A DNA stretch of 64,000 nucleotides, from the NCBI RefSeq assembly GCF_020905295.1, contig NZ_JAJJMM010000001.1:3162001-3226000 (forward strand). The letters run 5' to 3'. Position 1 is the stretch's first letter; each line of letters starts with the position of its first letter. This document shows, piece by piece, positions 875 through 13,688 of this stretch. Source of the DNA: Flavobacterium piscisymbiosum (GTDB lineage Bacteria > Bacteroidota > Bacteroidia > Flavobacteriales > Flavobacteriaceae). The translations under genes were made by a program, and so were the position numbers. The notes under the pieces were generated by a model. The model saw nothing but the letters and a program-made list of their open reading frames with translations. It had not been told where the DNA came from and did not search any database.

Positions 875-897
875 TGAGTTTAAGAAAGTATTGATTA

Positions 898-921
898 TTA
901 TGTTTTGGTGTTACTGCAGAG
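898..921. repeat. Possible degenerate left end of the cassette repeat
   Basis: The segment GTTTTGGTGTTACTGC resembles the left arm of the repeat at 2011-2146 (GTTTTGGCATTACAGC, 13 of 16 identical). Only this short part is recognisable, so it may be chance or the decayed outer edge of the array. Confidence 0.3.
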
Positions 922-972
922 TAAAACAAAATAATTTCAGATAAATTTCAATCTAAGTTGGAAATTTATCAA

Positions 973-1446
973 TTATATTTCTTTTAAAAGTATGGGTTTT
1001 CCATTTACTTCCATTCTTTCTATTTTTTCATCATTTGGGAATAGTGGCCAAAATTTAGCCATAAAAGATCTGGTCTTTCCTGCTTTTAAAATCATTTTGT
1101 AATTCTCGGTAGTTGTAGTTATCTTCATTCCTTGTACCACTTGATGAATATCGTATTTTTTGTTGTTTTTGTCAATAAGGAAAAATTTTTGAAAATCTAT
1201 TTCTACGTCTGAGTTAGTAGTATTGGAGAATTGTATCAATACTGTTTTAAATTTATGTCCTTTTTGATAATAATTAGTTTGATAAAATCCTGCATCTCCA
1301 TATGCAGAAGATTTAGAGCTGTAAAATCTTTTTATGCTATATGTTACGCCATCTGAAAAATCAAACTTATTTTCTTCTATTCTTTGCGCATTTATATGTT
1401 GTAATATGCCGCAGCATACTAACAGAGTAAGTAAAATTTTTTTCAT
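973..1446 (-). CDS. Secreted hypothetical protein (157 aa)
   Basis: I do not recognise the family. Residues 1-21 form a clear signal peptide (MKKILLTLLVCCGILQHINA, cleaved before Gln), so the product is exported. The mature part is about 135 residues, beta-rich in appearance, with FSNTTNSDVEIDFQKFFLID resembling the middle of an Ig-like or DUF4352-type extracellular domain; this resemblance is weak. It is the last gene of a same-strand run separated by cassette-like repeats, and only about 30 nt separate it from the preceding gene, so those two may be carried as one unit. Confidence 0.75.
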   Translation of the reverse strand: MKKILLTLLVCCGILQHINAQRIEENKFDFSDGVTYSIKRFYSSKSSAYGDAGFYQTNYYQKGHKFKTVLIQFSNTTNSDVEIDFQKFFLIDKNNKKYDIHQVVQGMKITTTTENYKMILKAGKTRSFMAKFWPLFPNDEKIERMEVNGKPILLKEI

Positions 1447-1457
1447 TATTTTTTTTA

Positions 1458-1484
1458 GTTGTTCGCTGCAACGGCTGTTATAAC
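1458..1484. repeat. Short cassette repeat (R1)
   Basis: A compact element GTTGTTCGCTG-CAACGGCTGTTATAAC between the two leftmost genes of the array. It contains the GGCTGT block of the longer repeats and its ends are mutually complementary (GTT..AAC). It overlaps the final codons and stop of the upstream gene (stop 1478-1480). It may be a minimal or collapsed copy of R2-R4. Confidence 0.4.
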
Positions 1485-1984
1485 AAGGTTTTTTTTATTT
1501 TTCTTTCATATTCTGTTTCAAAACCAAGATAACTAATATCATTTAGTTTTATAATTTCGTTTTCACTCCAATTGGAATCTTCATCAATTAAATGTAATTC
1601 AACTGAATCATTTGTTACCCATAGTATTTTACCAACAAAAAATGAATCTTCATTATCATAGGTAAAAATTGAAACTACTTCGGATACTAAGCTTTTCAAT
1701 GATTTTTCTAAATCTTTAAAGTCATTCAAATTAATATTAGCTAATAAACTTTCTGAGTTGTCATTTTTCAATTCTGCATAATCGTTTTCTTCCCATGTTC
1801 TATATTTTTCAATATCACTGTTTTTCACAATAGTATATCCGTCAAACTTTTCGTTTTCTTCGTCAAAATTAAGAAGCATAACTATTTCAGAGTTTGCTAC
1901 GACACACTTTCCCGTGTAAATATCATTTACAATTGGTGCAAGATCAAGATCTACGATTAATTTTCTTTCTGCTATTTCTTCCAT
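1478..1984 (-). CDS. Acidic hypothetical protein (168 aa)
   Basis: No family recognised. The protein is strongly acidic, with no signal peptide or membrane segment, so it is probably cytosolic. It has alternating beta-like stretches (IVMLLNFDEENEKFDGYTIV, FFVGKILWVTNDSVELHLID) of the kind found in small beta-barrel or Sm-like folds, and ends ..NDISYLGFETEYERKIKK. The ..GKILWVTNDSVELHLIDEDSNW.. stretch resembles contact-dependent immunity-like cassette proteins only in general character. It lies between repeats R1 and R2, and the start chosen gives no overlap with R2. Confidence 0.7.
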   Translation of the reverse strand: MEEIAERKLIVDLDLAPIVNDIYTGKCVVANSEIVMLLNFDEENEKFDGYTIVKNSDIEKYRTWEENDYAELKNDNSESLLANINLNDFKDLEKSLKSLVSEVVSIFTYDNEDSFFVGKILWVTNDSVELHLIDEDSNWSENEIIKLNDISYLGFETEYERKIKKTLL

Positions 1985-2010
1985 TTGTAAGTTACGTATT
2001 TAAAATGTGC

Positions 2011-2146
2011 TATAACGTTTTGGCATTACAGCGGGTTTGGGACTAAATTAAGCCCATTCTTCGGATCTTCCAAATCATCTCAAAGACAAAATTATTTTCC
2101 CATTAAACCTATTGCCCAAATCTGTTATGGTCGCTGTTGATGGCAG
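2011..2146. repeat. Cassette-boundary imperfect palindrome R2
   Basis: An imperfect palindrome of about 136 nt. The left part TATAACGTTTTGG-CATTACAG pairs with the right part CTGTTATGGTCGCTGTTGATG, and TTTGGG (2035-2041) with CCCAAA. It shares AGCGGGTTTGGGACTAA (2030-2046) with R3 exactly, CCCATTCTTC (2053-2062) with R3 and R4, and a GTT..GGTCGCTGT block at 2124-2137. It sits between two unrelated genes in the same orientation, like an integron attC site between cassettes. Confidence 0.7.
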
Positions 2147-2152
2147 TGATTT

Positions 2153-2932
2153 TTATTCATAATTTATTACGCTTTCCAGTCCTAATGCTTCTAAGTCTAT
2201 TTTTAAAGATAAAGGGGATTGGATCATTTTCAAAATACTTTCATTCATGTTCGTACAAGAAACGACACCTAAGTTGTTTTCGATAGCAATTTCTATGAAC
2301 TTACAAAAATCTGTAAAGTATTTTTTTGCGTCTTCGTTAGTAGGGTATAAGTTTTCTTTGTCTAACCACAAAAGTTTTAAATCTTCATTTGTCACCAAAT
2401 TTATAAGTCCGGTACAATTTGAACGGGAACTATAAAATATACTTCCCAAATTGCTATCAGTAAAATTGAAAATAATTTCTCCTGCAACAGAATTTGGATT
2501 AGCATTAACACGTCCGGTAAATATACTTCTGCCTAAAATTAAATGAGGGTTAAAAGCAGCACATTCTGAAAAAATCATTAACGTCAAAATGAGGTTGATG
2601 TCTTCTATTACTTGCCCATTTGCTTTTTGAAAATCTTCTTCGTCTTGATAGCGTTTTTTAATAAAAATAGAATATTCTTCGCTTGTTCCCTTTTTTCGTG
2701 TGTGTATATTGAGTAAGGTTTTGTGTGATTTAAAGTCTTCGTCTAAATCTTGACTAAATCTTAATATTTCAGCAATTCGTTCATCATTTTTATCATTTCC
2801 ATAGGCTATATATTTTCCGAATTCTGAATTAAAATATTTTTTAATTAATTCTCCATTACTTTTAAAGTCAGTAACAATTTTTGAATAGAATTTTTTATCG
2901 TCAAAGTGATGTAGAGTATTCCAATCGCCCAT
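2153..2932 (-). CDS. Hypothetical cytosolic protein (259 aa)
   Basis: Family not recognised. There is no signal peptide or transmembrane segment. The N-terminus starts MGDWNTLHHFDDKKFYSKIV, the middle carries a helical stretch (INLILTLMIFSECAAFNPHLILGR) and a segment FTGRVNANPNSVAGEI, and the C-terminus repeats acidic helices. It is similar in general character to sporadically distributed accessory proteins of Bacteroidota. It is bounded on both sides by the cassette repeats R2 and R3, with only 6 nt between R2 and the stop, which argues it moved as a single-gene unit. Confidence 0.7.
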   Translation of the reverse strand: MGDWNTLHHFDDKKFYSKIVTDFKSNGELIKKYFNSEFGKYIAYGNDKNDERIAEILRFSQDLDEDFKSHKTLLNIHTRKKGTSEEYSIFIKKRYQDEEDFQKANGQVIEDINLILTLMIFSECAAFNPHLILGRSIFTGRVNANPNSVAGEIIFNFTDSNLGSIFYSSRSNCTGLINLVTNEDLKLLWLDKENLYPTNEDAKKYFTDFCKFIEIAIENNLGVVSCTNMNESILKMIQSPLSLKIDLEALGLESVINYE

Positions 2933-2963
2933 TTTAATGATTTTTGAGGTTTATTTGGTATTG

Positions 2964-3096
2964 CTATCAACGTTTTGCTGTTATAGAGCGGGTTTGGGAC
3001 TAAGTTAAACCCATTCTTCTGATTGTCAAGTTATCTCAAATACAAAACCAATTCTATTAAGCTTATTGTTCAAATTCGTTGTAGTGGCTGTGATAT
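2964..3096. repeat. Cassette-boundary imperfect palindrome R3
   Basis: About 133 nt with outer arms GCTATCA and TGATATGC. It shares AGCGGGTTTGGGACTAA (2987-3003) and CCCATTCTTC (3010-3019) with R2, and GTTGTAGTGGCTGT (3078-3091) exactly with R4. It is in the same orientation relative to the genes as the other copies. Confidence 0.7.
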
Positions 3097-3103
3097 GCTG
3101 TTT

Positions 3104-4039
3104 TTATTTCCCTTTCCGCCAGTCTTCCAATGTCATTACAGTTTTGGTTTTTGGATTGAAGTATTTTATTTCAAAAGTTTTTTGGTCTACATAATAATTT
3201 AATTCTCTATTTCCAGCTTCTACTCTAATCCAATAATAACCTTTTCCAGTGTCGTATGGAGATTCTAAAATGGCCGTTGAAGACCAATCTTGATTTTCAG
3301 GCATCTTTATCAATAATTGTGTAATCTTGTGTCGTTTTTTATTGTCGACATTACAAATCTCGCAAATTTCAAAACTTGGATTTCCAGTAGGGAAAAAAAC
3401 TTCATTGAGTAGAGGTTTATTTTTTTCAAGCTCTTCAACTCTTTTTTGAGTCCATATGTAATAAATAAAATGTTTTCTCGATTTGTCTTCTTCAAGATTG
3501 TATTTATATGTTTTAAGAGCGGAGATCTTGTCTCCTATGCTTTCATAATAATTTCCGAGCGCATAATAGTTGCCATTACAAGTACCAATGCTGTCGATAA
3601 ATGATTTAGCAGACTTGAAGTCTTTTAATTTAACATAGTTTGCAGCATAGGCGATAGCTGCATCTCCAGTTTTGTTATCTTCAGTATTTAATTCGTTGAT
3701 TGATTCCTTGTATTTACCAATCTTATAAAATAATTCTGCTTTAAAACTGTGTAAGCTACGGTTAATGTTAGGTTTAATTTGTGATATGTATTTATCTTTT
3801 TCGTTCTTATTTACGATTAATAAACTGTCTACTTTCCTGAGAACTTTATCTGGATTTTTTTCAGATTCAATATATAATTTATTTAAAAGATTTTCAAAAT
3901 TTGTAAATGCTTCTGAAATTTTTTCATCTTCTTGATGCATCTTTTCGTGCTCCTTGTCAAAGAATAAATCTGGTTTATCGTTCTTACAAGAAATAAGAAG
4001 TAAAAAAAATAAAAATGTTACTTTTTGCAGTTTTTTCAT
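3104..4039 (-). CDS. TPR-type lipoprotein (311 aa)
   Basis: An exported lipoprotein with a lipobox LLLISC at residues 13-18, so the mature protein starts at Cys18. I start it at the ATG giving MKKLQKVTFLFF; an in-frame upstream ATG at 4093 would add 18 residues before the signal peptide and run into repeat R4. Residues about 80-200 look like tetratricopeptide helices (HSFKAELFYKIGKYKESINE, GNYYALGNYYESIGDKISAL). The C-terminal 60 residues (YYWIRVEAGNRELNYYVDQ..) resemble a PepSY-like beta sheet. It lies between repeats R3 and R4. The role is unknown, probably envelope-associated. Confidence 0.75.
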   Translation of the reverse strand: MKKLQKVTFLFFLLLISCKNDKPDLFFDKEHEKMHQEDEKISEAFTNFENLLNKLYIESEKNPDKVLRKVDSLLIVNKNEKDKYISQIKPNINRSLHSFKAELFYKIGKYKESINELNTEDNKTGDAAIAYAANYVKLKDFKSAKSFIDSIGTCNGNYYALGNYYESIGDKISALKTYKYNLEEDKSRKHFIYYIWTQKRVEELEKNKPLLNEVFFPTGNPSFEICEICNVDNKKRHKITQLLIKMPENQDWSSTAILESPYDTGKGYYWIRVEAGNRELNYYVDQKTFEIKYFNPKTKTVMTLEDWRKGK

Positions 4040-4061
4040 AAATGGTTTGTAAATTTTCGGT

Positions 4062-4153
4062 AGTACAACGGTTTTGCGATTAATTACGCCCATTCTTCAG
4101 ATTTCCCAAATTTCCATTAAGTCTATTGCTAAAATCAGTTGTAGTGGCTGTTA
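4062..4153. repeat. Cassette-boundary imperfect palindrome R4
   Basis: A shorter copy (about 92 nt). The left edge TACAACGGTTTTG and the right edge GTTGTAGTGGCTGTTA contain complementary TACAAC/GTTGTA. It keeps the CCCATTCTTC block (4089-4098) and a TTAAGTCTATTG block like R3. GTTGTAGTGGCTGT at 4138-4151 is identical to R3. Confidence 0.7.
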
Positions 4154-4160
4154 GTTAAAG

Positions 4161-5144
4161 TTAATTCTTTGTTTCATAGTATTCCAACCAATTCCGTATT
4201 CTTCCGACAAACATTTTTAGATAATTTTCACTCAAAAATATATTCGACCAATCAAATCTTTGTGCTTGTACTCCAAGATAAAACACAAAAATTGACGCAC
4301 CCGCTTCTGGAATTAACTTTATTTCATTTTCTGATAAATGTCTTATTTTTTGGTATCCATTTAAAAAACTTTTAGCCTTTAATTCATATTCATTTTTGTC
4401 GGATTCTATAAAAAATAATTGTTTGCAAAAATAGCCAACATCCAAAATTAATAAACCATTTCCACAATTATCAAAGTCAAAAATAGTGATTTCATTTTCA
4501 TTATTAACGCTCAAATTATCATACCAAATATCCAAATGAACTATTCCATTTTGATCTTCTAATAAATTACATTCTTTTATTCTTTTTGGTATTTTACTAC
4601 CAATTTCTTTTAAGAATTTCATTTCATCTAAATCTTCGGTAAAAAATGTTTTTAAATAATTATATGAACTATTTAAAAACATTTCAAAATCATAGTTTAC
4701 TCTGTCAATTTTTTTATTTTCGGTTATATTATGAATTTTAGCCATTAATGAACCAATAGAATAACAAGTTTCATTAGACATAAAGCGAATTTTTTCTCCT
4801 TTAGCATAAGAAAATACAACAACATATCTAATTCCTTCTGGGGCATTAATTTCTTGAATAAAATTTCCGTTTTTGTCGACAATTGGATGAGAAACAGATA
4901 AGGAATTATTTTTGAGTAAAATTAATAATTCTAATTCTTGTTCAATTTCTTTTTTTGTTCTCCATTTGTAACAATAAACTCTTATAACAAATTTAGTTTC
5001 ATTATCCGAAATAAAATAAGTATGATTTAAACCTGTTCTAAATAATTTACAAATAAAATTTTCGTTTAGTTGGTATTTTTCAGTTATAAAGAGTCCCAAT
5101 TCCTTTTCAGATAATGTTGATGCTAATACTGGAAATGTTGTCAT
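4161..5144 (-). CDS. Aminoglycoside phosphotransferase-fold kinase
   Basis: A 327-aa member of the APH / choline kinase-like phosphotransferase family. Diagnostic sites are the catalytic loop HLDIWYDN (Brenner motif HxDxxxxN) near residue 205 and IFDFDN near 222, which supplies the metal-binding Asp. N-terminal lobe features include KFVIRVYCYKWRTKKEIEQE, with the ATP-binding strand and Glu. The substrate cannot be told from sequence: relatives phosphorylate aminoglycosides, homoserine, choline, fructosamine or macrolides. It is the first gene of the minus-strand cassette-like run, 7 nt past repeat R4, and very AT-rich, which fits an acquired gene. Kinase fold is likely; antibiotic resistance is only a possibility. 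Confidence 0.85.
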   Translation of the reverse strand: MTTFPVLASTLSEKELGLFITEKYQLNENFICKLFRTGLNHTYFISDNETKFVIRVYCYKWRTKKEIEQELELLILLKNNSLSVSHPIVDKNGNFIQEINAPEGIRYVVVFSYAKGEKIRFMSNETCYSIGSLMAKIHNITENKKIDRVNYDFEMFLNSSYNYLKTFFTEDLDEMKFLKEIGSKIPKRIKECNLLEDQNGIVHLDIWYDNLSVNNENEITIFDFDNCGNGLLILDVGYFCKQLFFIESDKNEYELKAKSFLNGYQKIRHLSENEIKLIPEAGASIFVFYLGVQAQRFDWSNIFLSENYLKMFVGRIRNWLEYYETKN

Positions 5145-5222
5145 TATATTCGAATTTTGTTTAATAGAGGATAGCCACTAAATAGGATGCCTTTGTATGA
5201 AAATATCTGTTTTAGTAAAAAT

Positions 5223-5230
5223 CAAATATA
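5223..5230 (-). promoter_or_regulatory. Candidate -7 box upstream of the cassette run
   Basis: On the minus strand the sequence is TATATTTG, matching the Bacteroidota -7 consensus TAnnTTTG, about 80 nt upstream of the kinase start. No good -33 TTTG is visible at the usual distance. It could drive the first cassette gene and perhaps those after it. Confidence 0.4.
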
Positions 5231-5289
5231 ACATATTTGTCTTACAGATAATTAAGCAGAACCTTAATATTATTGATTACTTTTCGCAA

Positions 5290-5322
5290 TAACGTGTGGG
5301 AGCTATAAGGTCGGCTTTTCTA
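5290..5322. repeat. Possible outer cassette repeat (R5)
   Basis: AACGTGTGGGAGCTATAAGG-TCGGCTTTT resembles the left arm of R3 (AACGTTTTGCTGTTATAGAG-CGGGTTT), with about two thirds of positions identical. The right half is not recognisable. If real, it marks the upstream edge of the array. Confidence 0.35.
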
Positions 5323-5355
5323 CGCTTTTAAAAATAAAAAACACTTTAAAATAAA

Positions 5356-5386
5356 AATCCCTGATCACTTAGAGTAATCAGGGATT
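5356..5386 (-). terminator. Terminator of the 5410-6183 gene
   Basis: AATCCCTGATCAC pairs with GTAATCAGGGATT. On the minus strand the stem is followed by TTTTTATTTT. It lies 23 nt past the stop of the carboxypeptidase-regulatory-domain gene. Confidence 0.8.
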
Positions 5387-5409
5387 AATTTATTAGAGAA
5401 TGCTAAATT

Positions 5410-6183
5410 TTAATTTCGTTTCAGGACTTTATATTGTTCGTAACAGCCATTAATTGCATCCATAATCTGTAAATCATTTGCTGATTGTATAAAGGCTTCA
5501 GAATAATTACATCGCTGTAAAATTTCAGGAATTTCATCTTTGCTAATGCCTAACAATACTGAGACAGTTTCGCGATCGTATTTAGATTCTAACAGATTTC
5601 GAACAGTATCGTCTTTTCTCATTTCTTTTAATTTCTTGAGTTCTTTCGCATTTTTTCCAAAGAAACCATAGAGCACATCGGCAGGATTAAAAATAGATCC
5701 TAATACTTTTCCAAAAGCATTTGGAGAATATTCACCCGCTTCATAACCTTGTGTAAGACCTGAAATACTATAACGATAGTTCTCTTTAGTTGGAATCAAT
5801 TTAGAATCGACTTCAAGATATCCTGTTAAATTAAAAGGAGCAATGATAACTTCTTCCAGGGCAATTGCTTTTTCTGTAAGCTGAATTCTGGTTACTTTAT
5901 TTTTTATCCAGTCATTCGTTACTCTGATTCTAAGAGATTGAAATCCTAAAATCGAAAAGTGAATCGTGTCATTAAGCTGAACGTCTATCTCAAAATATCC
6001 TTTGGCATCAGATTTTGCACCACGAACTTTGTTGGTGTTGATGATGTTTACATTAGCAAGAGGTTGTTTACTATTATCGTTGATAATGTAACCAGATACT
6101 CTTTGAGGTACTGTAGACTCATTGTCTTGCGCAAAACCAATTGTAGATAGTAGTGTAAAAAAGAAAACTGCGAAATATTTCAT
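5410..6183 (-). CDS. Secreted carboxypeptidase-regulatory-like domain protein
   Basis: 257 aa with a signal peptide (residues 1-18, ..LLSTIGFAQ). Residues about 27-105 form a CarboxypepD_reg-like beta-sandwich (VSGYIINDNSKQPLANVNI, then SDAKGYFEIDV and IHFSILGFQSL), the module found at the N-terminus of SusC/TonB receptors but here without a plug or barrel. The remainder (about 120-257) is a helical domain of unknown role. In Bacteroidota such stand-alone proteins are periplasmic or envelope-associated with undefined function. It has its own terminator and is transcribed away from the helicase gene. Confidence 0.8.
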   Translation of the reverse strand: MKYFAVFFFTLLSTIGFAQDNESTVPQRVSGYIINDNSKQPLANVNIINTNKVRGAKSDAKGYFEIDVQLNDTIHFSILGFQSLRIRVTNDWIKNKVTRIQLTEKAIALEEVIIAPFNLTGYLEVDSKLIPTKENYRYSISGLTQGYEAGEYSPNAFGKVLGSIFNPADVLYGFFGKNAKELKKLKEMRKDDTVRNLLESKYDRETVSVLLGISKDEIPEILQRCNYSEAFIQSANDLQIMDAINGCYEQYKVLKRN

Positions 6184-6374
6184 ATCCTGATTTAAAGCAC
6201 TAAAAGTACTAAATAGGGATTAAATATTTCGCAGTCTTCGAATATAATTATCAGAAAATTAACAAAGCAAGAAGTGTTACTTTGGTATTCAACTAAAAAG
6301 GAGTAAGGAGATCTAAACTAAATTGTTTTGAATTAGAAGACACATCAATTGAGAGGAAGATTCTAATATAAAAA

Positions 6375-6410
6375 AATCCCAAATTCCAATTATGTCTGGA
6401 ATTTGGGATT
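6375..6410 (-). terminator. Terminator of the DEAD-box helicase gene
   Basis: AATCCCAAATTCCA pairs perfectly with TGGAATTTGGGATT. On the minus strand it is followed by seven T. It is located 24 nt beyond the helicase stop. The stem core is reused in the terminator at 33498-33541. Confidence 0.85.
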
Positions 6411-6433
6411 TTATATTTTAAGATATTGACTTA

Positions 6434-8359
6434 TTAGTCTCTTCTTGGTCTTCTTGGTCTTGGTGAATCACCAAAGCTTTCAGAACGTCTTGGAGCTCTG
6501 TCTGAACTACCTTCGCTTCTTGGAGCTGAGCTTCTAAAACCACCTTCTCTTTTTGGAGCAGATGAGTTTCTGTCGCTTCTGAAACCACCTTCTCTAGGAG
6601 CAGAGCTTCTGTCGCTTCTAAAACCTCCGCCACCAGAACCTTCACGTCTTGGTCCGAAACTTCCACCGCCAGAACCTTCTCTTCTTGGTCCTCCAGAGCT
6701 TCTTCCGCCACCAGAACGTCCGTTATGGTCACGTCTTCCGCCACCATCATTTTTAGAAATTTCAACATTAATACGACGTCCTTCTAATTGTACGTTGTTT
6801 AATACTTCCATTACTTTTTCAGTGTGCTCAGGATCAGTGTTAAAGAAAGAGAAACCTTCTTTTACATCTACTTTGAAAACGTCATCACGACCTAAGTCTA
6901 ATGTTTCTTTCAAATAATCTTTAAGTGACATCCAATCGAAGTTGTCTCTTGAACCGATGTTTACAAAATAACGAACTGCTCCGTTATTATTGAATTCTCT
7001 TGGTTCAGAATCGCTTCTTTCACGTCTTTCTCCAGATTGAGTAGAGATATCTCTGTTCTTTTTGTAGTAAGCAATAAAACGGTTAAATTCTACAGATACC
7101 ATTTTCTTGATCAACTCTTCTTTAGATAAACCTTCAAGAACATTGTTGATTGCTGGTAAATAGTTGTCAATTTCGTGATCAACCTCAGTATCTTTAATTT
7201 TGTTTGCTAAGTGTAATAACTGGATTTCGCAGATTTCGATTCCGGAAGGAATAGTTTTTTCTTCGAATTTTTGTTTGATGATTCTTTCGATAGAAGAAAT
7301 TTTACGTAGCTCACTTTTTGTAACAATTACAATAGAAGTTCCTAATTTTCCAGCTCTACCAGTACGTCCAGAACGGTGATTGTAAGTTTCAATCTCGTCA
7401 GGAAGTTGGTAATTTACTACGTGAGTAATATTATCAACGTCAATACCACGTGCAGCAACGTCAGTAGCGACAAGCATCTGAATTTGTCTTCCACGGAAAG
7501 ATTTCATTACACCATCACGTTGCGCCTGAGATAAATCTCCGTGCAATGCAGCAGCGCTGTATCCATCTTCAACTAATTTTTCTGCTACAGCTTGTGTATC
7601 TCTTTTAGTACGACAGAAAACCACAGAGAAAATATCTGGATTTGCATCGGCTAAACGTTTCAAAGCTTCGTAACGGTCACGTGCATTTACTAAGTAAAAC
7701 TCGTGAGAAACTGTTGCAGAACCTGAGTTCTTAGCTCCAACAGTAATTTCTACCGGGTCGCTCATAAATTGTTTTGCAATTCTGGCAACCTCTTGTGGCA
7801 TAGTTGCAGAGAACAACCATGTGTTTTTTTGATCTGGAGTATCTGATAAAATAGATACGATGTCTTCATAGAATCCCATGTTCAACATCTCATCAGCTTC
7901 ATCAAGAATACAGTAATCTATATTTTTAATGTTTACTAAACCTCTGTTGATCATGTCTTGCATTCTCCCCGGAGTAGCCACAATAATTTGTGCCCCTCTT
8001 TTAATGTCTCTAGCTTGCTCTGTAATACTAGCCCCGCCGTAAACTGCTACCACATTAATACCTTTCTCGTATTTTGAGTAGTTTTTAAGTTCGTTGGTAA
8101 TCTGTAAACAAAGTTCTCGTGTTGGCGATAAAACTAATGCTTGTGTATTTTTGTTGTCAGCATCAATTTTTTGAATTAGCGGAAAACCGAAAGCTGCCGT
8201 TTTCCCTGTCCCTGTCTGAGCCAACGCAACCATATCCGTGTCTTTTTCCAATAATAGGGGAATCGCTTTTTCCTGTACTTCTGACGGATTCTCAAATCCT
8301 AGATCTAAAATCGCCTTCAGTAACGATTCATTCAATCCTAATTGTTCAAATTTATTCAT
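6434..8359 (-). CDS. DEAD-box ATP-dependent RNA helicase with DbpA-type RNA-binding domain
   Basis: An RNA helicase that unwinds structured RNA, probably in ribosome assembly, mRNA decay or cold adaptation. All core motifs are visible in order: Q-motif F..LGL, AQTGTGKT (about residues 47-54), PTREL, TPGR, DEAD, SAT, then HGDLSQ, ATDVAARGID and HRSGRTGRAG. A C-terminal DbpA-like RRM (about 460-535, VRYFVNIGSRDNFDW..) is followed by an Arg/Gly/Ser-rich tail of about 100 residues that would bind RNA non-specifically. I start at MNKFEQLGLNESLL, 641 aa; a start 8 codons upstream is possible. A leader of about 200 nt separates it from rdgB. The tail is repetitive, which generates a spurious long frame on the same strand. 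Confidence 0.93.
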   Translation of the reverse strand: MNKFEQLGLNESLLKAILDLGFENPSEVQEKAIPLLLEKDTDMVALAQTGTGKTAAFGFPLIQKIDADNKNTQALVLSPTRELCLQITNELKNYSKYEKGINVVAVYGGASITEQARDIKRGAQIIVATPGRMQDMINRGLVNIKNIDYCILDEADEMLNMGFYEDIVSILSDTPDQKNTWLFSATMPQEVARIAKQFMSDPVEITVGAKNSGSATVSHEFYLVNARDRYEALKRLADANPDIFSVVFCRTKRDTQAVAEKLVEDGYSAAALHGDLSQAQRDGVMKSFRGRQIQMLVATDVAARGIDVDNITHVVNYQLPDEIETYNHRSGRTGRAGKLGTSIVIVTKSELRKISSIERIIKQKFEEKTIPSGIEICEIQLLHLANKIKDTEVDHEIDNYLPAINNVLEGLSKEELIKKMVSVEFNRFIAYYKKNRDISTQSGERRERSDSEPREFNNNGAVRYFVNIGSRDNFDWMSLKDYLKETLDLGRDDVFKVDVKEGFSFFNTDPEHTEKVMEVLNNVQLEGRRINVEISKNDGGGRRDHNGRSGGGRSSGGPRREGSGGGSFGPRREGSGGGGFRSDRSSAPREGGFRSDRNSSAPKREGGFRSSAPRSEGSSDRAPRRSESFGDSPRPRRPRRD

Positions 8360-8563
8360 ATATGTATTTAAAATAGGGTGCAAAATTACTGTTAATTATT
8401 CAGATAAACTAATGCTATTTTAAGAATTATGTATTTGTTATGATTTGATTATCAAAAAGTTATGTTTCATGTAGCATGATTTTTATCTGACAATCCAGAA
8501 AATTCGGGAAAAATACGTCGTGAAATATAAATTTTGGACTGTAAAATGTTGTATTCTAAACAA

Positions 8564-9142
8564 TTATTTTGCTGCATTCAGAAAATCAATTAGTTGGTGA
8601 GTAGCTTTCGCACGATGACTGATTTTATTTTTAACGTCTGAGGCCAGTTCAGCAAAAGTCTCAGTATAATTTTCCGGTTGAAAAATAGGGTCGTAACCAA
8701 AACCATGATTTCCTGTTTTATCAAGAATAATACTTCCTTTTGCAATTCCGGTAAATAAATGCTGTTTCCCTTTTAAATTTAATGCGATAACAGTTTTAAA
8801 TTGAGCGCTGCGGTCTTCTTTATCAACTAAAGCTTCCAGAAGTTTGTTCATATTATCATCGGCGTTGCGTTGTTCTCCCGCATATCGTGCAGAATAAACG
8901 CCAGGTGCTCCGCTTAAAGCCGTAACTTCTAATCCGGTATCATCTGCAAAACAATCATAACCATACTTTTCAGTTACATAATTGGCTTTCAAAATGGCAT
9001 TTCCTTCGATTGTATCTGCAGTTTCAGGAATTTCTTCGTGACAGCCAATATCTTCTAAACTTAACAATTGTATCGATCCGTTTAGGATACTTTGAATTTC
9101 CTTGATTTTATTAAGATTGTTTGACGCGAAAACCAATTGCAT
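8564..9142 (-). CDS. rdgB: RdgB/HAM1 XTP/dITP pyrophosphatase
   Basis: Hydrolyses non-canonical purine nucleoside triphosphates (dITP, XTP) to monophosphates, keeping them out of DNA and RNA. The 192-aa length is typical. Family features are the N-terminal [13 protein letters not shown] substrate loop, [24 protein letters not shown], the [13 protein letters not shown] loop and SHRAKA near the end. It is cytosolic. It is divergent from the ABC transporter gene, with about 90 nt between the starts. Confidence 0.95.
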
Positions 9143-9201
9143 GATGATATATTTTAAGAGATTATTATTAAGAGTACTTTAAAACACAAATTTAGAATTC
9201 T

Positions 9202-9209
9202 TATATTTG
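9202..9209 (+). promoter_or_regulatory. Candidate -7 box for the ABC exporter gene
   Basis: TATATTTG matches the TAnnTTTG consensus and lies 25 nt before the ATG. No convincing -33 TTTG is visible upstream. Confidence 0.5.
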
Positions 9210-9233
9210 ATAGACGACATGAAATAAAAATAA

Positions 9234-11012
9234 ATGCAGATATCATTATTATATAAAAAAATAACTCCTTTTGTTAAGCCATACAGGAAAATGGTGATTG
9301 CCACTTTATTGCTTACTTTTTTAGGGTCATTTGCTGCTCAGGTAAACGCATTAATATTAAAGTATACAGTTGATTCTATCAGTAAATTAATGGTAGCGCA
9401 TGAACCTTTGTCAAAAGGATTTCATTTATTAGAAATTATCAGCATTGTATTACTTTCAAAAGAGTTGGTTTATTCAGTAGTGCAGTTTGGGCAGAAATTT
9501 TATGGAGAAAAGCTGCGAATCTTTATAACCCGGGATATTTCTCAGTCTATAGTCGAAAAGATTCTGACTTATAGAATGGAGTTTTATACTTCTAATGAAA
9601 ATGAAAGCGGAAAACTTCAAACCAGAATCGATCTCGGTATTAGCAGTTTAACACGATTAGTTCAGAATTTCTTTATTGATATTCTGCCTCTGTTTGCAAA
9701 TGCTTTTGTGGCTTTGGCAATTATGTTTTATGCTAATGTATATGTAGGTTTGGTTAGTTTGTGTATTATTCCTATTTATTTTTATATCAGTCAATTGCAA
9801 GCTAGAAAGTTGAGTGGTTTTAGACGAAGAATGCGTCATTATCGCGAAACTAAGAACAACGGAATCATAAGTTTAATCGAATCAATAACTGTGATTAAGT
9901 CTTTTGTTCGTGAGCCTATGGAAGCAGATCGGCATAAAGATATTCAGTTCGAAATGACCGAGAATCAGCTCGAAACCAGAAAAACCAGTTTTATTTTTGA
10001 AAGTATAAAGGGCTTTGTAGAGCAAATAGGAGTCGTGATTATTATTATTCTAACCGCTTATTTTGTGCTCAATAATACCATGACAATTGGGGCAATCATG
10101 TTTCATATTATGTTGTTTAACAATGTATCAGCGCCAATCAGGCAATTACACCGTATTTATGATGAAGTAAATGATGCCTTGATTTATTCTGAAGGATTCT
10201 TCGATATTTTAGAATCAGAAAACGAAAAAGAAACCAGTGGCGATTATATTCCTGAAAAAATAAAAGGACTTATAGAAGTTAAAAACGTCGATTTTGTTTA
10301 TCCAAACGGAACAAAAGCGCTTTGGGATATCAATTTCACCATTAAACCCAATGAAACAACAGCTTTGGTTGGACTCAGCGGAGCTGGAAAAAGCACTATC
10401 ATTAATTTATTGGATAAGTTTTATTTACCGTCAAGCGGAAAAATTTATCTGGACGGAGTAGATTTAAATGATTACAATACTGACTTTCTTCGTAAAAACA
10501 TTGGATTAGTATTACAGAAGAATCACATTTTTAAAGGTACAATCGCCGAAAATATTTTATACGGAAAACCTGATGCTACACAATCAGAAATTATTGAAGC
10601 CGCCCAACAAGCCTATATTCATGATCAGGTTATGCAATTGCCAAAAGGTTATGATTCAGATGCGCATTTACTTTCGGGAGGGCAGCAACAGCGAATTGCT
10701 ATCGCGAGATTGTTTCTGAAAAATCCGCCTATTATTTTCCTCGACGAACCAACAGCAAGTTTGGATGCAATTGCCACAGAGCAAATAAAAAAATCCCTCG
10801 ATGCTATTAAAAAAGACAGAACCGTAATTATTATTTCGCACAGTATTTCTCAAATTATAGATGCGGCAAATATCATTGTTTTAGAACAAGGAAGGTGTGT
10901 CGAAAAAGGAACCCATGACGAATTGTATGATAATAAATCAGTGTATTATCAAATATTTACGGCAATGGCAAATAGTTTGAATATTGATAAAATCACGCAA
11001 ACGCTGGATTAA
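9234..11012 (+). CDS. ABC transporter, fused permease and ATP-binding domains
   Basis: A 592-aa half-size ABC exporter expected to dimerise in the inner membrane. The N-terminal half holds about six transmembrane helices (ABC_membrane type). The nucleotide-binding domain follows with Walker A GLSGAGKST (about residue 380), signature LSGGQQQR (480), Walker B IIFLDEP (about 500) and the H-loop His in IIISHS (about 534). The substrate is not predictable; relatives export lipids, peptides or drugs. The stop overlaps the stop of the convergent DUF2809 gene in a TTAA tetranucleotide. Confidence 0.92.
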   Translation: MQISLLYKKITPFVKPYRKMVIATLLLTFLGSFAAQVNALILKYTVDSISKLMVAHEPLSKGFHLLEIISIVLLSKELVYSVVQFGQKFYGEKLRIFITRDISQSIVEKILTYRMEFYTSNENESGKLQTRIDLGISSLTRLVQNFFIDILPLFANAFVALAIMFYANVYVGLVSLCIIPIYFYISQLQARKLSGFRRRMRHYRETKNNGIISLIESITVIKSFVREPMEADRHKDIQFEMTENQLETRKTSFIFESIKGFVEQIGVVIIIILTAYFVLNNTMTIGAIMFHIMLFNNVSAPIRQLHRIYDEVNDALIYSEGFFDILESENEKETSGDYIPEKIKGLIEVKNVDFVYPNGTKALWDINFTIKPNETTALVGLSGAGKSTIINLLDKFYLPSSGKIYLDGVDLNDYNTDFLRKNIGLVLQKNHIFKGTIAENILYGKPDATQSEIIEAAQQAYIHDQVMQLPKGYDSDAHLLSGGQQQRIAIARLFLKNPPIIFLDEPTASLDAIATEQIKKSLDAIKKDRTVIIISHSISQIIDAANIIVLEQGRCVEKGTHDELYDNKSVYYQIFTAMANSLNIDKITQTLD

Positions 11013-11380
11013 AGTTTGTTTCTTAAAACGATTCTTTCAATTAAAAAAGCTGTAAAAGCTCCAAAAGTATAAGCGAGAATATCACTCCATAAAAAACCTT
11101 GACCAAGAACATATTTTCCAAATAGTGTTTTTCTAAGCTCATTAATCCAATCAGCCTGATAGCGTTGGGAAAACTCAATTGTATAGCAAATCAATAATGA
11201 GAAAATCAGAATTTGCGTCGCTTTTTTTTCGATCAATAGTATTCTAATGAAGGTATACATCATCACAGCGTAAAGAAAATCTCCTGTACATAATGGTATC
11301 TCATCAAATTCTCTGGAGAAGATTCCAAGAAAAATAATCAATAAGAGAATGATGAAGTAGTAGAATCGTTTTCTTTTCAA
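11009..11380 (-). CDS. DUF2809-family membrane protein
   Basis: 123 aa, with four predicted membrane helices. The GDFLYAVMMY segment and the FLWSDILAYTFGAF segment with conserved Asp residues in or near helices are typical of DUF2809 proteins, a small VanZ-like family of unknown function. It converges on the ABC exporter gene, and the two stop codons share bases 11009-11012. The product would be in the inner membrane. Confidence 0.8.
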   Translation of the reverse strand: MKRKRFYYFIILLLIIFLGIFSREFDEIPLCTGDFLYAVMMYTFIRILLIEKKATQILIFSLLICYTIEFSQRYQADWINELRKTLFGKYVLGQGFLWSDILAYTFGAFTAFLIERIVLRNKL

Positions 11381-11441
11381 GTGCAGTTATATTTAGAGCA
11401 AATTTATATTAAATTTTTTATTGGTAATACTGGTGATTTCT

Positions 11442-11557
11442 CTTTGTCAAAGTTTAAAACTTTGACAAAGATTCTCATTAAGAGAAAAGTTAATTCAATT
11501 TTTTCATGTGTAATATTGAAGGCTTCCCTTTGTCAAAGTTCCAGACTTTGATAAAGG
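11442..11557. repeat. RAYT-associated palindromes, upstream pair
   Basis: Two hairpins. At 11442-11470, CTTTGTCAAAGTTT pairs perfectly with AAACTTTGACAAAG around a single A. At 11528-11557, CTTTGTCAAAGTT pairs with GACTTTGATAAAG with two mismatched positions. The same palindrome occurs twice after the transposase gene and once at 53601-53629. Confidence 0.85.
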
Positions 11558-11636
11558 TTCTTTTTTTATAATTAATTAAGAAAAATCTTATTTATTTGGT
11601 ATTTTTGATCTTTTAAATTTTAAAGATATTAAATCA

Positions 11637-12239
11637 TTGGATATTAGAATTCAAAACTTAGAACCGGACTGTTTTTATCATATTTATAACCGTGGAGTAA
11701 ATGGAGATAAAGTTTTTCAGGAAAGTGATAATTACATGTTTTTCATGGCACAATTTCTCAAATACTTAAGTAATGTGTGCGATCTCTATGCTTATTGTCT
11801 AATGCCAAATCATTTTCATTTTTTAATTAAAATAAAATCTCAAGAGGAATTAGTTATTTTTTTTGAAGCGAAGAATAAAAGATCAAATAATAAAGGTTTG
11901 CATTCAATAGAAAGTATTTCCAGTAAACAATTAAGTAAATTTATTAGTTCTTATACTCAGGCATATAATAAAGTTTTTGAAAGACATGGTCCGTTATTTG
12001 AATCTCCTTTTAAAAGAAAGAAAATAGATTCTGAGCAATATTTAATGAATGTGATTGTGTATATTCATCAAAATCCAATTGATATTAAGAAGGATTTTAA
12101 AAGTTATAAATTTTCTTCCTATTCAACTGTTTTGTCTTCTTTGAAAACTAATTTAAAAAGAGGTGAAGTAATTGAATATTTTGATAATTTGGAAAATTTT
12201 ATATTTTGTCATACTAAGATAATTGACTTTAAATTTTAA
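11637..12239 (+). CDS. REP-associated tyrosine transposase (Y1_Tnp family)
   Basis: A single-strand DNA transposase of the HUH superfamily, 200 aa. Key sites are the HUH pair His59-Phe-His61 in CLMPNHFHFLI, the candidate catalytic Tyr106 or Tyr110 in SSYTQAYNK, GPLFESPFKRKKI, and YIHQNPID at 142-149. N-terminal YHIYNRG is typical of the RAYT clade rather than of classic IS200 TnpA. The start is TTG; there is no ATG at a suitable place. Palindromes on both sides are the presumed substrate. Confidence 0.9.
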   Translation: MDIRIQNLEPDCFYHIYNRGVNGDKVFQESDNYMFFMAQFLKYLSNVCDLYAYCLMPNHFHFLIKIKSQEELVIFFEAKNKRSNNKGLHSIESISSKQLSKFISSYTQAYNKVFERHGPLFESPFKRKKIDSEQYLMNVIVYIHQNPIDIKKDFKSYKFSSYSTVLSSLKTNLKRGEVIEYFDNLENFIFCHTKIIDFKF

Positions 12240-12252
12240 GGTTTTAAAGAAT

Positions 12253-12370
12253 CTTTGTCAAAGTTTTGAACTTTGACAAAGAGGAAAGAGAAGAGGAACT
12301 ATTTGGTTTAATATGTTATGTTTTCGAAATCTAGAAAAATCTTTGTCAAAGTTTTGAAATTTTGACAAAG
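12253..12370. repeat. RAYT-associated palindromes, downstream pair
   Basis: At 12253-12281 CTTTGTCAAAGTT pairs with AACTTTGACAAAG around a 3 nt loop. At 12341-12370 CTTTGTCAAA pairs with TTTGACAAAG, with a looser centre. The first begins 14 nt after the transposase stop. Confidence 0.85.
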
Positions 12371-12506
12371 AGCAACTAAGAAAAAAAGTCTCAGATAGTA
12401 CAGTTTTAGGGAGTGAAAAATACAAACACTCAAATAAGTTTACTTTATTTTATAAATTTATCGATTCCAAAAAATATAGTAATTTTCTATCTAATTAAAT
12501 AACCAC

Positions 12507-13688
12507 ATGAATACAAGATTTACAGCTTTGGTTTTGACCTTATTTTTATTTGTAAGTAATGTCTACTCTCAAAAAAACAATTCCTTTAATATTAAAAAAC
12601 AACTTGAATATTGCGCAGAACAAGCTTCGAAAACTCTAAAGGTAATTCCGGATGATGGAACTTCTCCAAGAATGGTTCCTAACGGAAGCAAGGATTGGAA
12701 ATTTGTTAATTACAAAGATTGGACAAGCGGATTCTGGCCAGGAGAACTATGGTATTTGTATGAAGCAACAGGAGATAAAAAATGGGAAAAAGAAGCAGAT
12801 AAATTTAGTCAGTTTTTGAAGCCTTTGTCTGTTAGTAAAGCTGCAGATCATGATTTAGGATTTCAGATTTTTAATAGTTTCGGAAACGGTTATCGTTTAA
12901 CTAAAAACAAAGAATATAAAGAAATTGTTTTAAAAACTGCTGATACATTAGCAACACTGTTTAATCCAAAAGTGGGTACAATTCAGTCTTGGCCACATAA
13001 TAAAATGGGCGGTCATAATACGATCATCGATAATATGATGAATTTAGAATTGCTTTTTTGGGCTTCTAAAAATGGAGGGAATAAAAAGCTGTATGACATT
13101 GCGGTAAAACATGCCGAAACTACGATGAACAATCATTTTAGACCAGATTACAGTTCGTATCATGTTGTTATTTATGATTATGAAACCGGTAAAAAAATAA
13201 AAGGCAGAACCGCGCAAGGTTATAGCGATGATAGTATGTGGGCTAGAGGTCAGGCTTGGGCGATTTATGGATTTACAATGGTTTACAGAGAAACAAAGGA
13301 TCCTAAATTTTTAGACTTTGCGCACAAATTAACCCGAGTTTATTTAGACAGATTAACGAAGGAAGATTTAATTCCTTATTGGGATTTTAATGCGCCTGGA
13401 ATTCCGAATGAGCCAAGAGATGCTTCGGCAGCAGCTATTGTTTCTTCGGCGCTTATTGAGTTAAGTTCGTATACAAAAGATGTAAATCTTAAAAAGGAAT
13501 ATCTAACAAAGTCTAAAAAAATGATTGTTTCGCTTTCAGACCATTATCAGAGTCATGATGTAAATTCGGCATTTTTGCTTCATTCTACAGGACATAAACC
13601 TGCCGGAAGTGAAATAGATTGTTCGATAAATTATGCAGATTATTATTATCTTGAAGCACTTTTAAGACTTCAAAAAATAAAAAAATAA
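12507..13688 (+). CDS. GH88 unsaturated glucuronyl hydrolase
   Basis: A periplasmic hydrolase that opens 4,5-unsaturated uronic-acid residues at the ends of oligosaccharides made by polysaccharide lyases. A signal peptide (residues 1-21, ..FVSNVYSQ) is followed by an alpha/alpha-barrel of about 370 residues. The likely catalytic pair is Asp116 in DHDLGF and Asp175 in TIIDNMMNLELL, 59 residues apart as in known GH88 enzymes. Other conserved parts are WTSGFWPGELW and the W-rich SMWARGQAWAIYG. A lipoprotein gene starts 4 nt after the stop, so they are probably cotranscribed. No lyase lies nearby, so its substrate source is elsewhere. Confidence 0.9.
   Translation: MNTRFTALVLTLFLFVSNVYSQKNNSFNIKKQLEYCAEQASKTLKVIPDDGTSPRMVPNGSKDWKFVNYKDWTSGFWPGELWYLYEATGDKKWEKEADKFSQFLKPLSVSKAADHDLGFQIFNSFGNGYRLTKNKEYKEIVLKTADTLATLFNPKVGTIQSWPHNKMGGHNTIIDNMMNLELLFWASKNGGNKKLYDIAVKHAETTMNNHFRPDYSSYHVVIYDYETGKKIKGRTAQGYSDDSMWARGQAWAIYGFTMVYRETKDPKFLDFAHKLTRVYLDRLTKEDLIPYWDFNAPGIPNEPRDASAAAIVSSALIELSSYTKDVNLKKEYLTKSKKMIVSLSDHYQSHDVNSAFLLHSTGHKPAGSEIDCSINYADYYYLEALLRLQKIKK

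Follow-up and report, generated by a model that had tools for sequence, protein, structure and literature searches.

The segment at positions 893-5322 of the 64 000-nucleotide stretch of Flavobacterium piscisymbiosum DNA analysed here (the window) is very probably a cluster of five gene cassettes that has been stranded and has partly decayed, derived from an integron-like system of Bacteroidota whose recombinase lies outside the IntI family. From sequence comparison, we interpret this system as a new class of integron-like elements in the phylum. The preliminary description of this DNA had offered a choice between a CALIN-type relic and a different Bacteroidota cassette system; our results favour both together, the window containing an integrase-less cluster of a different system. 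In other genomes of the genus, the family and the phylum, sites of this kind are lined up on one strand, in arrays that begin shortly after a tyrosine recombinase gene.

The five-gene block and its repeat family

All features of the block lie on the minus strand. At its upstream end is the 3' half of an attC-like site (5285-5322), recognized by eye, with the candidate crossover CACG^TTATTGCG. Cassette gene 1 (4161-5144) encodes a 327-aa APH-family phosphotransferase (Pfam APH, 55.6 bits; cut-off 23.2) and is followed by the attC-like site R4 (4046-4154), which is 109 bp long, internally shortened, and matched the covariance model of the repeat family (the R1 model) with 93.0 bits (E 3.3e-20). 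Cassette gene 2 (3104-4042), for a 312-aa lipoprotein-like protein, precedes site R3 (2964-3094; 113.8 bits, E 1.7e-25; crossover AACG^TTGATAGC), and cassette gene 3 (2153-2932), for a 259-aa protein with no Pfam match, precedes site R2 (2009-2140; 139.3 bits, E 4.9e-32; crossover AACG^TTATAGCA). Cassette gene 4 (1478-1984) encodes a 168-aa acidic protein, again with no Pfam match, and is bounded by a collapsed attC-like site (1453-1484), in which the 5' end TAACAGCC and the 3' end can be seen by eye and the centre is missing. Cassette gene 5 (973-1446) encodes a 157-aa predicted secreted protein with a weak DUF4352 match below the cut-off, and a decayed attC-like site, recognized by eye from its 3' half (893-921), marks the downstream end of the block. 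Rfam at gathering thresholds gave no match in the window, and PADLOC, run on the five proteins of the block, produced no more than two matches (E 0.0083 and 0.0047).

The R1 model was built from eight copies, all from the window's own genome, and since R2-R4 are among these eight sequences, their E-values are not independent. As an independent check, R2 was compared with the genome it comes from by BLASTN, which found 11 places at E < 1e-5; eight of these lie outside the window. The earlier proposal is confirmed that R2, R3 and R4 belong to a single repeat family, present on a single strand in the gaps of same-strand genes, and the exact words quoted as shared among them are present in the sequence. 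The reduced copies suspected near the block ends and within it are plausible by eye, with both ends recognizable at 1453-1484 and 3' halves at 893-921 and 5285-5322, but the R1 model reported none of them. A covariance-model search for further copies, as had been suggested, revealed many more, arranged in arrays with single short genes between them. The other site clusters of the window's genome contain several sites and have no head integrase.

None of the 29 related loci examined contains the five-gene block, and the flanking peptidase gene is adjacent in 20 of the 29. The absence of the whole block agrees in part with the strain-specific gain or loss anticipated earlier; no single cassette was seen to come or go between strains, since the block turned up in no other genome. 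Homologs of the 312-aa lipoprotein gene are precisely bounded cassettes in six of 14 loci fetched from other genomes. A point against the cassette interpretation is that homologs of the 259-aa gene had an R1 site within 1.5 kb in none of six loci.

Arrays, site structure and cassette boundaries

A tyrosine recombinase gene, for which the preliminary description had suggested looking near other copies, was found in other genomes, with the arrays downstream of it on the same strand. In genome G406 the array comprises 20 sites behind the recombinase, and in G370, a single-contig genome, 244 sites on one strand extend over 176.6 kb behind it (4 of 248 left motifs were dropped as unpaired). Of 243 units in G370, 52 have their longest ORF on the opposite strand and 20 have none. 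The attC-like sites differ between species, and five of 19 loci from other genera lack any k-mer that recurs four times. Among 134 cassette ORFs drawn up, the 88 distinct ORFs sampled match 53 Pfam families with at most two members each, and no single theme is apparent. Some of the sampled ORFs match defence-type models (AbiEii, GajA and a Pycsar cyclase).

Within the genus, 35 of 47 genomes with a close integrase and 47 of 74 without one have R1 sites (hand count, E <= 2.2e-86). This co-occurrence was dropped as evidence; the near-zero association results from integrase-less clusters and from site families unseen by the model, such as that of G416.

What is preserved in the sites is their structure. 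In an alignment of 137 distinct sites, which was fitted to the structure, all 16 stem pairs have changes on both sides, and stem pairing is 91.6%, compared with 73.9% in shuffled and at most 47.3% in slid controls; covariation was weak on the first eight copies. Folding of single sites as DNA was rejected as structure evidence, with extreme z-scores in only one of four sites, on both strands, and was replaced by covariation.

The cassette boundaries follow a complementarity rule: the seven bases after G^TT at a cassette start are complementary to the seven bases before AAC in the cassette's own site. Over 110 units (from a set of 164 matches, of which 6 were left out as overlapping), the complementary fractions at bases 1-7 were.92,.87,.85,.81,.81,.83 and.65, whereas the comparison of each start with the next unit (107 cases) gave.48,.43,.28,.31,.59,.35 and.32, the level of shuffled sequences. 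G370, with a different site family, gave.99,.95,.95,.94, 1.0,.94 and.67 for own sites in 243 units, compared with.84,.36,.40,.30,.94,.42 and.33 for the next unit. Because the rule needs no sequence model, it is testable on any genome at once. When 46 loci, hand-picked from those fetched, were scanned by the rule only, 379 units were found on the array strand and eight on the opposite strand, against 15.0 in shuffles; the scan found nothing in three of the 46. Within the window, complementarity is kept in only two of the four checkable cassettes, namely the 259-aa cassette (six of seven bases) and the 168-aa cassette with its collapsed site (five of seven), the remaining two having three and zero of seven. 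When starts and ends are paired at random, six or more of seven bases are complementary in 3.8% of draws and five or more in 10.4%, so the window boundaries alone are weak evidence.

Duplicated cassettes locate the crossover by another comparison. We kept pairs of cassettes of equal length that were at least 99.5% identical and had unlike right neighbours; in the resulting 29 pairs with unlike surroundings, identity is 1.0 at CG and at TT and falls to near chance rightward, which places the exchange point within CGTT, at a resolution short of a single bond. Unit starts are G^TTR in 715 of 731 cases and G^TTRRRY in 23 of 731.

These results bear on whether the repeats might be nothing more than terminators or dispersed elements, of a REP- or MITE-like kind, that lie between genes by chance. 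Such elements would also appear as imperfect palindromes in the gaps of same-strand genes, and R1 sites are indeed scattered over several places of the window's genome; however, dispersed elements would leave unaccounted for the complementarity of a cassette start to its own end, the arrays confined to one strand behind a single type of gene, and the fact that identical units diverge precisely at CG^TT. To the extent that sequence comparison can decide, this explanation is refuted, and we regard its probability as close to negligible.

The head recombinase and its predicted insertion site

The recombinase linked to the arrays scored 198.2 bits against the integron-integrase model TIGR02249 (cut-off 265), and it did not reach the cut-offs of XerC (187.6 against 329.6 bits) or XerD (183.7 against 335.15 bits). 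Against XerA_Arch (NF040815) it scored 219.9 bits, the cut-off being 220. The number of residues between two motifs is 63-68 in 24 rows of the new recombinase and 105 in four IntI rows, the motif distance having been obtained for only four IntI and three Xer rows; in an alignment with 2a3v, the new recombinase has 16 residues where 2a3v has 58. The N-terminus of most members is extended by about 70 residues. In the phylogenetic tree, IntI forms a separate clade (support 100/99) and the head recombinases fall outside it; the XerC/XerD rows also form a separate clade (100/98), and the host genomes encode XerC and XerD in genes distinct from that of the head recombinase. Three loci (L342, L361 and L229) had no usable ORF for the tree, and five ORFs were omitted (L339, L204, and one each of L133, L087 and L191).

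Matches to TIGR02249 in the family were considered as integron integrases and rejected, as none of 299 genomes exceeded the cut-off. In the phylum, 105 of 395 genomes exceeded it; canonical IntI is common in other classes, and a single genome of the same class among the 395 was over the cut-off. An ordinary IntI-type integron or CALIN with unusual attC sequences would follow the same scheme of cassettes with hairpin sites and a crossover, and the frequency of canonical IntI in those other classes speaks for it. However, the absence of matches over the cut-off from the 299 family genomes and their near absence from the class, the score and the shorter motif distance of the linked recombinase, the separate IntI clade and the few GTTRRRY starts all stand against this explanation, which we consider very unlikely.

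A spot between 27 and 179 bp past the recombinase stop codon, often palindromic, was predicted as the insertion site in 27 of 35 loci, and its palindrome score was at or above the 95th percentile of controls in 18 of these 27. Of the eight misses, six (among 33 predicted loci) have a distant GTT at 369-841 bp and two (L153 and L154) have none; in G370 the distant choice is the end of the first attC-like site. The often palindromic spot is a putative attI, and the head tyrosine recombinase is the probable enzyme that moves the cassettes.

The window's genome contains no head integrase. Three matches at E <= 1e-30 were found there, and the two listed have 34% identity and belong to another clade. 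The window lineage may have lost its integrase, or may have acquired the block by off-site insertion. An alternative is that the head integrase is incidental and that a different tyrosine recombinase, for example the multi-copy type with 34-37% identity, moves the cassettes. Such recombinases occur inside or beside arrays in G343, G409 and G407, and two copies exist in the window's genome although it lacks a head integrase. Against this, in genus after genus the head integrase is followed by arrays downstream on the same strand, and the predicted insertion site lies at the short distance from its stop codon given above; this alternative is highly improbable.

With the head recombinase as the candidate enzyme, the following mechanism is proposed. 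We predict that the recombinase acts on one strand in folded form and carries out both the insertion and the excision of circular cassettes, at G^TT in the attC-like hairpin sites. In an excised circle, the first bases of the cassette would be brought beside its own site, and the outer stem would thus be completed, with seven pairs, a conserved mismatch and two more pairs. The completed site would then be recombined with attI by the integrase, and the cassette would thereby be added at the head of the array.

Comparison with known integrons

Integrons are one of the principal ways in which bacteria acquire genes as modules. On balance, we lean towards the broader interpretation that Bacteroidota possess a second kind of integron, in which a separate, insert-less recombinase lineage captures circular cassettes via hairpin sites, with the outer arm rewritten for each cassette. 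If so, its arrays are as large as superintegrons, and this kind of integron has gone unrecognized because the methods of detection depend on the IntI insert and on a model of canonical attC sites. The cassettes of many Flavobacteriaceae and other Bacteroidota would then be a large pool of mobile accessory genes, and the IntI insert, which is regarded as indispensable to integron integrases, would not be needed for cassette capture. The system would represent either an independent origin of integrons or an integron form from before the insert was gained, and its comparison with IntI integrons might root or date the integron origin.

The relevant passage of the IntegronFinder 2.0 survey reports one complete integron in Bacteroidetes proper, in Salinibacter ruber, before which only integrases without cassettes had been found there (PMC9024848). 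In titles and abstracts of the open-licence PMC literature, which here excludes preprints, no such cassette system of Flavobacterium or Flavobacteriaceae appeared among the matches listed.

The cluster in the window, with three full sites, and the other clusters of its genome, with several, occur in a genome that at E <= 1e-30 has no head integrase beyond the matches of another clade, and in this they resemble CALINs; their sites, in contrast, appear not to be canonical attC. Compared with XerA, XerC and XerD, the new recombinase differs in being linked to cassette arrays. The definition of integron integrases given in PMC9668308 refers to an additional IntI-specific domain in the catalytic region; unlike IntI, the new recombinase lacks this insert, scores below the integron-integrase cut-off and falls in a separate clade. 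RYYYAAC and GTTRRRY are integron core sites by the definition stated in PMC3053210, whereas only 23 of 731 starts here have GTTRRRY. Furthermore, the integrase gene is co-directional with the cassettes and the predicted attI lies on its 3' side, which differs from the usual integron layout.

As in class 1 and sedentary chromosomal integrons, the cassettes carry short genes in one orientation beside a tyrosine recombinase gene, the palindromic sites have YAAC...GTTR ends and are kept as hairpin structures rather than as sequences, and the predicted crossover is at G^TT. The start of an integron cassette is complementary to its own site, and the same is true of the cassettes described here, with a longer complementary arm of seven bases, a mismatch and two more bases.

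Repeats of the window and arrays behind a recombinase gene

The three repeats of the preliminary description, R2, R3 and R4, are borne out, each occupying a gap that separates two genes of the same strand. In the orientation of those genes, copies in the window's genome have the form TAACAGCTACTACAACGGATTTGGG ... CCCAAACCCGCTGTAGCGCCAGAACG^TTA. A BLASTN search of this 6.49-Mb genome with R2 found 11 places with E below 1e-5, three of them R2–R4 and eight elsewhere (four of the eight forming two pairs). The covariance model R1, built from eight copies that all come from this genome, matches it 20 times at E <= 1e-3, with no more than 28 candidates scored per genome; at that threshold the model has matches in 82 of 121 Flavobacterium genomes. 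A larger integrase-less cluster in the window's genome has seven R1 sites at 3944–13378 of the fetched locus L091 (contig C1:62001–76000), near 66–75 kb of the contig.

Downstream of a gene for a 347-aa tyrosine recombinase, genome G406 has 20 sites, every one on that gene's strand and most separated from the next by one short gene. Site sequences differ in the family's other genera, but the layout comes back; at least two k-mers recur at least four times in 14 of 19 such loci, and none does in the other five. The single-contig genome G370, of the same genus as the window, carries 244 paired sites, out of 248 left motifs, within 176.6 kb downstream of the integrase gene, with none on the opposite strand and a median spacing of 658 bp. 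Per unit (a cassette with its own site), the longest ORF runs with the array in 171 of 243 cases and against it in 52; in the remaining 20 it is shorter than 40 aa. The array occupies C1:3075980–3252606, about 5% of the 3.46-Mb genome; by comparison, the superintegron of Vibrio cholerae measures about 126 kb. In a sample of 88 cassette ORFs no family dominates; GNAT acetyltransferases and proteins of defence type (AbiEii, GajA-like, Pycsar cyclase) are among those encoded.

Cassette boundaries and site structure

If units are circularised with a junction at G^TT, the bases that follow a unit's starting GTT are expected to pair with those preceding the AAC at its own end. In 110 R1-type units, the matches of start with own end at bases 1–7 were.92,.87,.85,.81,.81,.83 and.65, against.48,.43,.28,.31,.59,.35 and.32 with the next unit (107 comparisons), which is the shuffled level. 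In the 243 units of G370 the own-end values were.99,.95,.95,.94, 1.0,.94 and.67, followed by.01 at base 8 and then.88 and.93; those for the next unit were.84,.36,.40,.30,.94,.42 and.33, with shuffles nearly equal, and bases 1 and 5 are only partly informative because the letters there hardly vary. From this profile, the outer arm consists of seven pairs and two or more further ones, separated by a conserved mismatch. What is conserved in the site is its structure: among 137 distinct sites, both-sided changes occur at all 16 stem pairs. Paired cells make up 91.6%, compared with 73.9% after shuffling and at most 47.3% with slid partners, and the covariation score is.451, compared with.145 and at most.087, in an alignment that was fitted to the structure and so favours pairing; on the first eight copies alone, covariation support is weak.

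Over 46 loci, a scan using only the rule of start/own-end complementarity together with [AC]CG^TT and AACA found 379 units on the array strand and 8 on the opposite one, with 15.0 per shuffled set, counts that are not fully independent since some units duplicate one another; three of the 46 loci gave none. In the best 80 loci of the matches listed from named genomes, the integrase strand had 64 units and the opposite strand 20, against 6.5 in shuffled sequence; 11 loci had at least two on the integrase strand. These include Algibacter onchidii (13), Rufibacter sp. SYSU D00344 (12) and Seonamhaeicola aphaedonensis (6); the Algibacter and Rufibacter counts, from Flavobacteriaceae and Hymenobacteraceae hosts, are not near noise, whereas counts as low as those of Winogradskyella ursingii (3), Flavobacterium aciduliphilum (3) and Algoriphagus ornithinivorans (2) are.

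Like cassettes (at least 80% identity over at least 85% of length) form 156 pairs among 731 rule-scan units of 26 genomes, six of them between genomes, and a 607-bp cassette of G370 recurs unchanged about 106 kb apart. We compared the boundaries of 29 pairs that are at least 99.5% identical and of the same length and whose right neighbours differ. Identity is 1.0 at CG and TT on both sides,.24–.76 in the right flank save for.97 at one base (the tenth), and.38–.97 in the left flank, where two different sites meet.

The window's block in related genomes

The block (893–5322) lies between a peptidase-type gene (69–593) and a carboxypeptidase-regulatory-like gene (5410–6183). We fetched the 30 best orthologs of the latter from 249 Flavobacterium genomes, together with 1.5 kb of flank at either end; 29 belong to other genomes. 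None of the five block genes was found at these 29 loci (tblastn, E <= 1e-3), nor was any R1 site. The peptidase gene was inside the fetched stretch at 20 and not found there in the other nine, and the gap measured 296–782 bp in the eight loci compared in detail. Homologs of the 259-aa gene occur in six other genomes of the 249 and those of the 312-aa lipoprotein gene in 16, with only G399 common to both lists. That the five genes might be a fixed operon was the result that would have spoken against a cassette array; on this comparison they are not one. The lipoprotein homolog lies within 7/7 cassette boundaries at six of 14 loci fetched from other genomes (L420, L421, L422, L424, L429 and L432), and in G127 a further one shares its contig with the integrase gene and lies downstream of it. 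No R1 site was found where the 259-aa homologs lie (0 of 6 loci); one of these loci (L414) had a single 6/7 rule-scan match.

Within the window, start and own end are complementary at 6 of 7 bases in the 259-aa cassette, 5 of 7 in the 168-aa cassette, 3 in the APH cassette and 0 in the lipoprotein cassette; when starts and ends are paired at random, at least 6 arise in 3.8% of draws and at least 5 in 10.4%. The block's ends resemble half sites. The window's genome has three recombinase matches at E <= 1e-30, of which the two listed are 34% identical and, as far as they were placed, belong to another clade; genes resembling XerC and XerD were detected separately. The most fitting reading of the block is therefore a cluster that lacks an integrase and is decaying, a reading that draws on its relatives and not on its own boundaries. 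Of the two possibilities raised earlier, a CALIN-type relic or a different cassette system, the results favour a combination: an integrase-less cluster belonging to a different cassette system.

Integrases, predicted attI and known integrons

The head integrase often decays, leaving clusters like that of the window, as indicated by internal stop codons in several genes (L087 of G409, L116 of G375, the second G343 copy, G403, G412 and G414) and by a remnant of the last 79 residues beside an array in G302. From –60 to +900 bp of the integrase stop codon, we searched for a GTT followed by bases complementary to the end of a neighbouring cassette. Of 35 loci, 33 gave a candidate attI, which in 27 lies 27–179 bp past the stop codon, often with a palindrome upstream, such as AATAAACGCACCGGTGCGTTTATCCATATG^TT in G040. 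The median inverted-repeat score there was 8, compared with 4 across 1080 control GTTs; the control 95th percentile is reached by 18 of the 27 (P = 5e-10, which is too strong because the loci are related). The attI is predicted, from sequence, on the 3' side of a co-directional integrase gene.

In several loci (L042:933–1337, L044:942–1346, L033:726–1100 and L036:2408–2782) the integrase gene has a divergent neighbour, a small conserved gene whose product (CxxC...GRTDKKFC) looks zinc-finger-like by eye. A second multi-copy tyrosine recombinase type, 34–37% identical to the head integrase, occurs within or beside arrays in several genomes (C1:4284423 and 4288361 of the window's genome; five copies in G343; L087:10442–11281; L133:4942–5778) and may be an IS-like element using or targeting the sites. 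Recombinase relatives are also present in viral contigs (IMG/VR; 369 stretches, of which 80 were kept as L246–L325).

Passages of PMC2426708 and PMC8618304 name the group or phylum among integron carriers. Among the matches listed in our literature search, no published description of such a cassette system was found. In every comparative test made here the system behaves as an integron does, but the definition tested for IntI integrons does not cover it; hence, on the literature searched, it is a variant of the integron not described before, possibly of separate origin from those known.
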